A DNA stretch of 33,276 nucleotides. Origin: Bacillota bacterium (GTDB lineage: Bacteria; Bacillota; Clostridia; Peptostreptococcales; Anaerovoracaceae). Location: positions 1 to 33,276 of the forward strand of contig JAQXSU010000052.1 in assembly GCA_029219125.1 (NCBI GenBank), read 5' to 3'. The notes under the pieces are model-generated. The model was not told the origin of the DNA. It ran no database searches and worked only from the letters and a program-made list of their open reading frames with translations. Shown here in pieces: positions 17,315 through 21,124 of the stretch. How positions within the stretch are numbered: position 1 is the first letter of the stretch; every line of letters begins with the position of its first letter. Both the position numbers and the translations under genes were made by a program.

Positions 17315-18021
17315 TGCAGATAAAAGATGCGTTTGACGCAGTCAGTGTATCCTGTACAACCGATATGGCGCAGCAGCTGGAACGCTACATGGAGGGCGTT
17401 TTATCCTGGAATGAAAAGGTGAACCTGACTGCAATCACAGACCGGGATGAATTCATTATCAAACACTTCCTGGATTCTGTACTTTGCTGCGGATTCCCTG
17501 AATATGAGTCTGCGAAAAAAATCATCGATGTGGGCACAGGAGCCGGCTTTCCCGGGATACCCCTTGCCGTGGTTTCCCCTGAGAAGCAGTTTATTCTGAT
17601 GGATTCTCTGAAAAAACGTCTGAACATCATTGACGAGCTGACGGATTCCATTGGGATTCAGAATGTTTCCACGGTACATGCCCGTGCAGAGGAACTGGCC
17701 AGAAACAAAGAACATCGTGAGCAGTATGATCTCTGCGTTTCAAGGGCAGTTGCAAATCTTGCAACCCTGTCTGAATACTGTCTTCCTTTCATACGGCATG
17801 GAGGTTACCTTCTGGCCTATAAGGGACCGGACGCCGATGATGAGATCGCACAGGCAAAAAAAGCTGTTTTCCTTCTGGGCGGACAGCTTGAACGTGTCGA
17901 ATCTGCTCCGCTGAATCAGTACGGCCTCGATCATCGGATTTTGTTCATAAAAAAAGTAAGAAATACGCCGGCGAAATATCCGAGAAAAGCCGGAACCCCG
18001 TCGAAAGACCCCCTGAAATAG
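17311..18021 (+). CDS. rsmG: 16S rRNA (guanine527-N7)-methyltransferase RsmG
   Basis: [56 protein letters not shown] overlap with mnmG. Confidence 0.97.
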
Positions 18022-18043
18022 CGAAAACAGGGGGTTTTCCTTT
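18008..18043 (+). terminator. Predicted terminator overlapping the rsmG stop codon
   Basis: ACCCCCTG...CAGGGGGTTTTCCTTTT; the rsmG stop (18019-18021) lies in the loop. Confidence 0.65.
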
Positions 18044-18153: not shown

Positions 18154-19050
18154 ATGTTAGAGATGTTGGGAAAGAAAACAGGAAGGTTTTCCGGAGCACT
18201 ACGGAATGTTCCGCCGTCCATTCCCAGGCCGCAGGAAAGGGAAGAGGATCTGACTTCTTTGAAACAGGAGGTCATTGAGATTCCGCTGCAGATGATTTTT
18301 CTCAATCCGGAGCAGCCTCGAAAGATTTTTCGTGAGGAAGAACTTACACAGCTGGCATCTTCCATTCGTGACTATGGCGTTTTGCAGCCCATTCTGGTGA
18401 AGCCGACTGCGGAAGGCAGCTTTATGGTCATTGCCGGAGAACGCCGCTACCGGGCCGCCTGTCAGGCAGGTCTTTTTACCATTCCCGCCATTGTTCGAAG
18501 TATGGAGGAAGAAGAGGCGGCACTGGTTGCTCTGGTGGAAAATGTGCAGAGAGAAAATCTTGGATATCTGGAAGAGGCACGTGCTTATAAGAAGCTGATG
18601 GATGATTTCGGTCTTACCCAGAGTGAGATTGCGCAGAAAGTCGGCAAGCAGCAATCCACCATATCCAACAAAATCCGCATTCTCTCTCTTCCTGATGATA
18701 TTCAGGAGGTACTGACAGAGCACAGGCTTACGGAACGCCATGCCAGGGCTCTTCTCCGCGTACAGGGCGAAAATGACAGACGCAAGGTGATTGCCCGGGT
18801 CATAAAAAACAATCTGAATGTGAAACAGACGGAAAAGCTGGTGGATGACCTGCTGTCGGGCCAGGAGGAACTGCGTCGGAAGAAAAACAAGGTGAACTAC
18901 ATCAGCTATAAAATTTATGTCAATACGATCCGCAAAGCGTTTTCACAGATCAAAGAGATGGAAGAAAATGCCATATTTACACAGGAAGACAAAGGTGACG
19001 TGCTTGAACTTAAAATAACAATTCCTAAGAAAGACCGATGTTTCACGTGA
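18154..19050 (+). CDS. noc: Nucleoid occlusion protein Noc (ParB family)
   Basis: ParB-type N domain (NPEQPRKIF, AGERRYRAACQAG, LVENVQRENLGYLEEARAYKKLM) and HTH GKQQSTISNKIRILSLPDDIQEVLTEHRLTERHARAL. The Q, K and R at reported Noc specificity positions (173/179/201, C. crescentus ParB numbering) are Noc-like; S replaces K at 184. Located between rsmG and parA. Confidence 0.87.
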   Translation: MLEMLGKKTGRFSGALRNVPPSIPRPQEREEDLTSLKQEVIEIPLQMIFLNPEQPRKIFREEELTQLASSIRDYGVLQPILVKPTAEGSFMVIAGERRYRAACQAGLFTIPAIVRSMEEEEAALVALVENVQRENLGYLEEARAYKKLMDDFGLTQSEIAQKVGKQQSTISNKIRILSLPDDIQEVLTEHRLTERHARALLRVQGENDRRKVIARVIKNNLNVKQTEKLVDDLLSGQEELRRKKNKVNYISYKIYVNTIRKAFSQIKEMEENAIFTQEDKGDVLELKITIPKKDRCFT

Positions 19051-19069
19051 AACATCGGTCTTTTTTTCT
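19030..19069 (+). terminator. Predicted Rho-independent terminator of noc, built from a perfect 34-bp palindrome containing parS
   Basis: AAAGACCGATGTTTCACGTGAAACATCGGTCTTT (19030-19063), then further T residues. Confidence 0.75.
19039..19054. promoter_or_regulatory. parS: parS centromere site (perfect consensus)
   Basis: TGTTTCACGTGAAACA, 16/16 match to the Firmicute parS consensus. Confidence 0.97.
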
Positions 19070-19143
19070 AAAACCAGTAGAAATGAATCCGAAAATAATA
19101 TATAATAGTATCTGTCAATGCAAAGAGAAATAATACAGGAGGG

Positions 19144-19923
19144 ATGACTACTTTGGGAAAAGCAATCGCAATATTTAATCAAAAGGGTGGAGTAGGAAAA
19201 ACGACAACAAATATCAACCTGGCAGCTTGCCTTGCAATCAAGGGAAAGAAAGTGCTGATACTGGACATCGACCCGCAGGGAAACACCACCAGCGGAATCG
19301 GTGTATCTAAAAAGAATTTAGATAAGACAGTATATAATATTTTAGTGGATGAGAGCTTTGACCCACAGGAAGCAATTATACAGACAACTGTAGAAAATCT
19401 GGATCTGATTCCGGCGAGTGTAGATCTGGCAGGAGCAGAAGTTGAACTGGTACAGATGAAGGGAAGAGAAATTTCACTGAAGAAGGGGCTGGATAAGATA
19501 CGTCATATGTACGATTATATATTTATCGATTGTCCGCCGTCACTGGGACTGTTGACGATCAATTCTCTTACAGCCGTAGACAGCGTACTGATTCCGATCC
19601 AGTGTGAATTTTATGCACTGGAGGGAGTGAGCCAGCTGGTGAGCACCATTGAACTGGTAAAGAAAAGCCTGAATCCGAAGCTGACAGTGCAGGGTGTAAT
19701 TCTCAGTATGTTTGACGGAAGAACGAATCTGTCTCTGCAGGTGGTGCAGGAAGTGAAAAAATATTTCGGAGGAAAAGTGTATTCCACAGTTATTCCCAGA
19801 AATGTACGTTTGGCTGAGGCACCGAGTTATGGTATGCCGATCACCGAATACGATCCGAAATCCAAAGGAGCGGAAGCGTATATGGATTTTGCGGAAGAGT
19901 TCTTAGAACTGGAGGAAGAGTAG
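19144..19923 (+). CDS. parA: Chromosome partitioning ATPase ParA/Soj
   Basis: 259 aa; KAIAIFNQKGGVGKTTTNINLAACLA (deviant Walker A), LILDIDPQGNTTSGIG, FIDCPPSLGLLT. Confidence 0.97.
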   Translation: MTTLGKAIAIFNQKGGVGKTTTNINLAACLAIKGKKVLILDIDPQGNTTSGIGVSKKNLDKTVYNILVDESFDPQEAIIQTTVENLDLIPASVDLAGAEVELVQMKGREISLKKGLDKIRHMYDYIFIDCPPSLGLLTINSLTAVDSVLIPIQCEFYALEGVSQLVSTIELVKKSLNPKLTVQGVILSMFDGRTNLSLQVVQEVKKYFGGKVYSTVIPRNVRLAEAPSYGMPITEYDPKSKGAEAYMDFAEEFLELEEE

Positions 19924-19924
19924 G

Positions 19925-20827
19925 ATGGCAGCAGCGAAAAAAGGAGGACTGGGCAGAGGCCTGGACGCACTGTTTGCAGATGTACCGGTTTCTGCGCCGG
20001 AAGAAGAGACAAAGGAAGAAGGAAAAAGTGAAGAAGTGGCGGCTGAAGACAGAGTGAATTATATCGATATTCACGAAATCATGCCCAATGTAAATCAGCC
20101 AAGAAAGACATTTCCTGAAGAAAAAATTGAAGAACTGGCGGATTCAATCCGTGAACACGGAATCATACAGCCTATAGTAGTGAGAAAAAAACAGAAGGGA
20201 TATGAAATCGTTGCCGGAGAAAGAAGATGGCGTGCTGCCATGAAAGCCGGATTGTCTGAAGTGCCATGTCTTCTTCGCGAACTGAGTGACGAACAGAATA
20301 TGCTCATCGCCATCATTGAAAATATGCAGCGTGAGGATCTGAATCCGATTGAAGAAGCAGAAGGGCTGCACCAGATGATCAGTACCTTCGGACTGACACA
20401 GGAACAGGTATCGAAAAGTGTGGGAAAGAGTCGGCCATATATTACAAATTCCCTTCGTCTTTTGAAACTCCCCGAATATATTCGTGTAAAGGTTTCTGAA
20501 GGAGAGCTGACCGCAGGTCACGGAAGGACTCTCATAACTGTGGAAGATGTAAATCTGCAGCGACAGCTTTGTGATAAGATCGTAGAAGAAGGACTTTCTG
20601 TTCGACAGACAGAGAAACTGGTTGCAGAACTGGGAAAAGGACCGAAAAAAAAACCGGCACAGAAACAGAAAAATCCAGACACACTGCGCGTGGAAGAAGA
20701 ATTGAAAACCATTCTGGGAACGAGAGTCAACATAGTGGAAAAAGGAAAAAAAGGAAAGATAGAGATTGAATGCTTTAGCCGCGATGAAATGAATCGTCTC
20801 ATAGAACTATTGAAAAAACTGGGTTAG
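19925..20827 (+). CDS. parB: Chromosome partitioning protein ParB/Spo0J
   Basis: GLGRGLDALFADV, NVNQPRKTF, VAGERRWRAAMKAGL, HTH GKSRPYITNSLRLLKLPEYI...ELTAGHGRTL with R and G at positions 173 and 201 typical of parS-binding ParB. Confidence 0.97.
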   Translation: MAAAKKGGLGRGLDALFADVPVSAPEEETKEEGKSEEVAAEDRVNYIDIHEIMPNVNQPRKTFPEEKIEELADSIREHGIIQPIVVRKKQKGYEIVAGERRWRAAMKAGLSEVPCLLRELSDEQNMLIAIIENMQREDLNPIEEAEGLHQMISTFGLTQEQVSKSVGKSRPYITNSLRLLKLPEYIRVKVSEGELTAGHGRTLITVEDVNLQRQLCDKIVEEGLSVRQTEKLVAELGKGPKKKPAQKQKNPDTLRVEEELKTILGTRVNIVEKGKKGKIEIECFSRDEMNRLIELLKKLG

Positions 20828-20833
20828 AGGGAG

Positions 20834-21124
20834 ATGTTTCACATGAAACCTTTACTGTGGATAGCTGCTCTGTGGCTGATATGGAATCTGTTCACATTTC
20901 TTCAGATGGGAATGGACAAAAGAAAAGCAGTAAAAGAAAAACAGAGAATCAGTGAAAAAACTTTACTTTTATCGGCGTTTTGCATGGGAGCTGTGGGAAG
21001 CGGCGCAGGGATGCTGGTCTTTCACCATAAGACGAAAAAATGGAAGTTTCGGATTCTGGTTCCGCTGGCATTGGCAGTCAATCTGGCGGTGATTTGCATC
21101 GGAATATATCTGATACAGAATTAA
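20834..21124 (+). CDS. DUF1294-family small membrane protein
   Basis: 96 aa; WNLFTFLQMGMDKRKAVKEKQRISEKTLLLSAFCMGAVGSGAGMLVFHHKTKKWKFRILVPL. Confidence 0.85.
   Translation: MFHMKPLLWIAALWLIWNLFTFLQMGMDKRKAVKEKQRISEKTLLLSAFCMGAVGSGAGMLVFHHKTKKWKFRILVPLALAVNLAVICIGIYLIQN
20835..20850. promoter_or_regulatory. parS: Degenerate second parS site
   Basis: TGTTTCACATGAAACC, 14/16 match to TGTTTCACGTGAAACA, at the 5' end of the gene following parB. Confidence 0.65.

Follow-up and report, generated by a model that had tools for sequence, protein, structure and literature searches.

Can the site at which a segregation protein loads onto the chromosome also be the place where a gene stops being transcribed? 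ParB loads at parS, a centromere generally regarded as acting as DNA only, and a stem followed by a T tract terminates transcription. The two functions probably meet in the window (the whole stretch of 33,276 nucleotides analysed here, from a Bacillota bacterium of the family Anaerovoracaceae), where rsmG, noc, parA and parB follow one another in their usual order and noc ends within a perfect 34-bp inverted repeat, AAAGACCGATGTTTCACGTGAAACATCGGTCTTT. The preliminary description had read this repeat as parS, noc C-terminus, noc stop codon and intrinsic terminator compressed into one element. Sequence comparison with relatives makes it very probable that a single element is both ParB loading site and noc terminator, with a conserved parA promoter a short way downstream. 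The features involved are given in Table 1.

Table 1. Features at the noc-parA junction and its surroundings (window coordinates)
Feature	Position	Strand	Support
noc, Noc-type ParB paralogue, 298 aa; last three codons and stop (CFT, stop) inside parS	18154..19050	+	TIGR04285, 293 bits; PDB Noc 7nfu
Perfect palindrome and predicted terminator stem, 15 bp with ACGU loop; three further pairs extend it to 19027-19066	19030..19063	+	folding; arm covariation
parS, perfect 16-bp TGTTTCACGTGAAACA, predicted ParB loading site	19039..19054		0 mismatches; parB with parS-type residues 0.9 kb downstream
T tract of predicted intrinsic terminator	19061..19067	+	T bias on downstream side at 24/26 relatives' sites, opposite at 0
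Predicted parA (soj) promoter, TAGAAA-17-TATAAT; TATAAT begins 47 nt downstream of parS	19078..19106	+	promoter scan; TATAAT kept in relatives
parA (soj)	19144..19923	+	ParA-superfamily matches, those listed all below curated cut-offs; noc-parA-parB order
parB (spo0J), parS-type specificity residues R/S/K/G	19925..20827	+	residues defined in PMC7383237

The repeat consists of a 16-bp core, identical to the chromosomal parS sequence TGTTNCACGTGAAACA, and of perfect 9-bp arms flanking it. It is as perfect as first described, although it stops at 19063 rather than running on to 19069, and a run of seven T lies at its downstream end, on the noc coding strand. When parS cores were given shuffled flanks, arms of at least 5 bp arose in none of 452. 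In the noc sense, the RNA folds into an 18-pair hairpin, made of 15 perfect pairs and three A-U or G-U pairs that reach into the T run. The folding energy is -24.9 kcal/mol (z = -7.8), a value matched by no shuffled sequence, so that the strong hairpin expected from the preliminary description is indeed predicted; the reverse strand gives a weaker version whose T tract is interrupted. A fixed-rule terminator scan of the window made no call at the palindrome, probably because no tail remains once the stem has extended into the T tract. The stretch separating noc from parA holds no other apparent terminator. The core is also the sole perfect parS in the assembly (a 2.14-Mb draft, 86% complete).

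Both the core and its setting, next to the par operon, are those of a chromosomal ParABS (Spo0J/ParB) system, and the likely ligand can be read from the two ParB-type proteins encoded nearby. The noc product scores under the curated cut-off of its profile (293 bits for 315), and its best solved-structure match is Noc 7nfu (E = 1.6e-53). Noc-type specificity residues are Q173, K179 and/or K184, and R201, and those of parS-type ParB include R173 and G201 in Caulobacter numbering (PMC7383237). Aligned with 7nfu, the noc product (P0001) carries Q, K, S and R in GKQQSTISNKIRILS...LTERHAR, the Noc type, and should therefore prefer a Noc site. The ParB (P0003) carries R, S, K and G in GKSRPYITNSLRLLK...LTAGHGR, the residues of a cognate parS-binding protein. 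Together these residues suggest that the natural ligand of the palindrome should be ParB rather than Noc. The element itself does not have the Noc binding site (NBS, ATTTCCCGGGAAAT), its core being parS, and no NBS-like site with up to one mismatch occurs on this contig (C52). Elsewhere in the draft genome there are four NBS matches with one mismatch (C29, C89, C109 and C261) and no perfect one.

We gathered noc 3' junctions from a Noc protein search of genomes and from three named records, without selecting for parS. A parS variant was counted with up to 2 mismatches and no further than 130 bp from the noc stop, and a terminator was defined simply as a hairpin of -9 kcal/mol or lower with at least 5 T in 8. 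By these definitions, 35 of 42 junctions of the same bacterial family have parS or a close variant near the noc stop. At 34 of these 35 related sites, which do not represent 34 independent events, parS is wholly contained in a noc-strand hairpin with T tract; the same cores with shuffled flanks gave 19 of 700. The lone exception, L137, has parS with a separate terminator. Relatives in families f3, f4 and f11 (L140, L145 and L147 among them) carry a noc whose end lacks parS, so that neither function requires the fusion.

The hairpin takes two forms in this family. In most members it is centred on parS, as in the window. In eight others (L109, L110, L112, L117, L118, L119, L129 and L133) it is offset: the right half of parS pairs with a degenerate half-parS lying upstream, and a T tract follows. 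The parS of the offset form is a one-base variant, except in L117 where it is perfect, and such hairpins are in effect two overlapping inverted copies of parS. On the noc tree the parS-centred and offset forms are interspersed, and the nearby parS has been lost several times.

If the flanking arms serve as an RNA stem, they should change in a compensatory manner around a constant core, a pattern that the preliminary description had proposed to look for. Core columns hardly vary across 23 distinct parS-centred sites, while the arms do. Cells changed on both sides number 54, against 16.6 (sd 4.4) in shuffles; the covariation score is 0.409, compared with 0.165 (sd 0.019); and 92% of cells are paired, a share that falls to 44-55% with slid partners. 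As relatedness inflates tests of this kind, we also reduced the set to a single site per genus and exchanged right arms among genera: in 14 genera, 39 of 42 cells at arm positions 3-5 are paired, against 15.1 (sd 3.0) after swapping. Even within parS there is a paired change, two sites reading TGTTCCACGTGGAACA. The arms thus covary while parS stays nearly fixed.

Strand information comes mainly from the T tract. At 24 of 26 sites, T is more abundant downstream of noc than A is on the mirrored upstream side, and the reverse is seen at none. Together with the covariation of the arms, this bias supports the dual DNA/RNA role suggested at the outset. Non-Watson-Crick pairs at arm positions 1-7, read in the noc sense, include 12 G-U and one A-C, for a null ratio of about 33 to 21. 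The shortage of A-C (1 against about 21 expected) lends mild support to the noc strand, to which the T asymmetry points as well. An excess of G-U was also considered as strand evidence and rejected as weak, the fraction among non-Watson-Crick pairs being 0.375 against 0.353 in the null.

The overlap with the coding sequence is a different matter. The noc frame crosses the left half of the palindrome and ends in KITIPKKDRCFT and a TGA (19048-19050) within parS, so that the protein tail KDRCFT is encoded there, exactly as first noticed. We rejected the idea that this tail or the stop overlap is conserved for its own sake. In L102, from the same genus, the noc stop lies 43 nt before parS and a parS-terminator with 13-bp arms is kept; the state in which CFT and the stop fall within parS has changed at least three times on the noc tree; and the tail lies past the last conserved motif, IPK. 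The single element first proposed therefore holds as a fusion of parS and terminator, which relatives retain, and not as regards the noc C-terminus and stop codon, which L102 dispenses with. Since L102 keeps the parS-terminator without stop overlap, the overlap of codons is incidental.

Two other gene boundaries in the window have related arrangements. The rsmG stop codon is also within its own terminator-like hairpin (18006-18038, -17.0 kcal/mol), so that stop-terminator overlap is not special to noc here. Just past the parB stop, a second parS-like site, TGTTTCACATGAAACC (20835-20850, 2 mismatches), contains an ATG (20843-20845) that is a plausible start codon for a DUF1294 gene, which makes it another parS-like motif overlapping a gene boundary. 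Relatives keep a site after parB, often TGTTTCACATGAAACA (L032-L039 and L097-L099).

Downstream of the element, 33 of the 35 family sites have a TATAAT no more than 150 nt from parS, compared with 20% of shuffled sequences. Its spacing from parS is 43-49 nt in many relatives (19101-19106 in the window), and the -35-like element upstream of it is loosely conserved. The order is thus predicted terminator, T tract and predicted parA promoter, and the conserved spacing might let ParB act on parA transcription.

We propose the following mechanism. ParB would load at the 16-bp core, marking and segregating the origin region. Once transcribed, the same DNA would, with its covarying arms and T tract, end noc transcripts by intrinsic termination. 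On its way out of noc, RNA polymerase would cross parS, a hairpin with the parS sequence as its upper half would form, and the enzyme would halt at the downstream edge of parS, just before the parA promoter. The base of the stem is rich in A-U pairs, so termination could be partial.

Fused parS and terminators are found beyond this family, at lower frequency. Terminator calls on either strand were obtained at 10 of 42 exact parS in the class (3 of 168 shuffled) and at 5 of 39 in a set drawn mostly from other classes of the phylum (3 of 156 shuffled). Arms of at least 5 bp occur at 11 of 42 and 6 of 39 sites in these two sets and at none of the shuffles. In a wider sample, calls were more frequent where a gene 3' end lay no more than 70 nt away on the strand (20 of 72 strands, against 9 of 152; p = 2e-5). 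Most of the Bacillota parS sites sampled outside the family have arms of 0-3 bp and no terminator call. Parallel cases therefore recur in Bacillota, and it is in the Anaerovoracaceae that they are nearly fixed at the noc end. Long-armed, strong parS-terminators are present at other sites in distant Clostridia (L199, L200, L174, L177, L178, L179, L185, L081 and L083), some of them at what looks like an rsmG-parA junction. A Bifidobacterium record (L088) has an unusually dense group of six exact parS in 3 kb.

The alternative that survives best is a weaker version of the dual role itself, in which terminator and parS are fused without any functional link between segregation and transcription. 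We give it an even chance. Gene ends are expected to carry a terminator, and parS by itself already provides a 6-bp stem with a 4-nt loop. The repeated origin of parS-terminators elsewhere in Bacillota fits such a passive coincidence, as do the rsmG hairpin, which indicates that compact stop-terminator overlaps are ordinary in this window, and the DNA uptake sequences of Neisseria, which became terminators (PMC2397512). That nearly every parS-bearing noc end has retained the fusion, even as the architecture changed, points to more than drift, although it may only reflect both functions being kept. In any case this alternative opposes regulatory coupling only and is compatible with a parS that doubles as terminator.

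A coupling device proper, in which a ParB clamp at parS blocks polymerase or alters the hairpin, appears unlikely. The preliminary description had raised the idea that ParB loading might affect noc transcription, or the reverse. ParB bound at parS would stand in the path of polymerase. Were the coupling true, noc transcript ends and read-through into parA-parB would depend on centromere occupancy, ParB clamps on the parA side would be spared sweeping by noc transcripts stopped at the edge of parS, and a single palindrome would tie origin segregation to nucleoid occlusion in cis.

Far less probable is that the arms are no RNA device at all, but an extended DNA palindrome recognised by ParB or another dimeric protein, or a cruciform, next to an incidental T tract. 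Some observations would suit a DNA role: the base pair adjoining the core is A/T at all parS-centred family sites and could be an extended ParB contact; the parS of L248 has 16-bp arms; and among 16 strand-sites that combine arms of 5 bp or more with a gene 3' end, 5 lack a terminator call on the strand leaving the gene. Yet it is the complementarity of the arms that is conserved and not their sequence, T tracts lie on the noc-downstream side, and the offset hairpin of other genera ends in a T tract too. Moreover, the short arms of most parS elsewhere indicate that ParB does not need them. Weakest of all, the notion of a plain parS, with a hairpin formed by chance and noc ending elsewhere or reading through into parA-parB, is consistent with the many parS sites lacking a predicted terminator but hardly credible in view of 9-bp arms with T7 that shuffled flanks never produce, the strong arm covariation and the absence of another apparent terminator before parA.

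A parS that doubles as terminator differs from the known systems closest to it. Ordinary parS sites have no covarying arms or T tract. Rho-independent terminators share with the element a stem-loop followed by a T tract at a gene 3' end, here with the stop codon inside the hairpin, and stem covariation, but they usually conserve structure only, whereas the apical stem and loop are nearly invariant here because they form a predicted protein-binding site. The nearest precedent for a protein-recognition DNA motif doubling as a rho-independent terminator stem is the Neisseria DNA uptake sequence (DUS), inverted pairs of which act as terminators (PMC2397512 and references in it). A DUS terminator is assembled from a short, abundant repeat that is not itself palindromic and is present in two inverted copies, whereas the stem core here is one centromere site, palindromic on its own and limited to one or a few loci. 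The offset form of relatives, combining parS with a degenerate half-site, comes closer to DUS pairs. In Pseudomonas aeruginosa, ParB at the intergenic parS3/parS4 represses adjacent genes (PMC7022226; see also PMC5521831). These sites are likewise intergenic and placed to affect neighbouring transcription, but lie upstream of the genes they repress, while the present parS is at a gene end and part of a predicted terminator. Our search of openly licensed papers found no report of a parS inside a terminator.

The most likely reason for the fusion is economy, a ready-made palindrome being available beside a gene end, and this would most likely be reinforced by keeping noc transcription away from the parA promoter. 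The same base pairs are apparently under two selections, protein recognition for the core and RNA structure for the whole stem. The arms offer a handle on the effect of parS on transcription, as they can be mutated with the ParB core left intact. For annotation, the warning is that a terminator call and a parS call can be one sequence. The element would also be a clear example of a centromere site that several lineages have recruited as a terminator.
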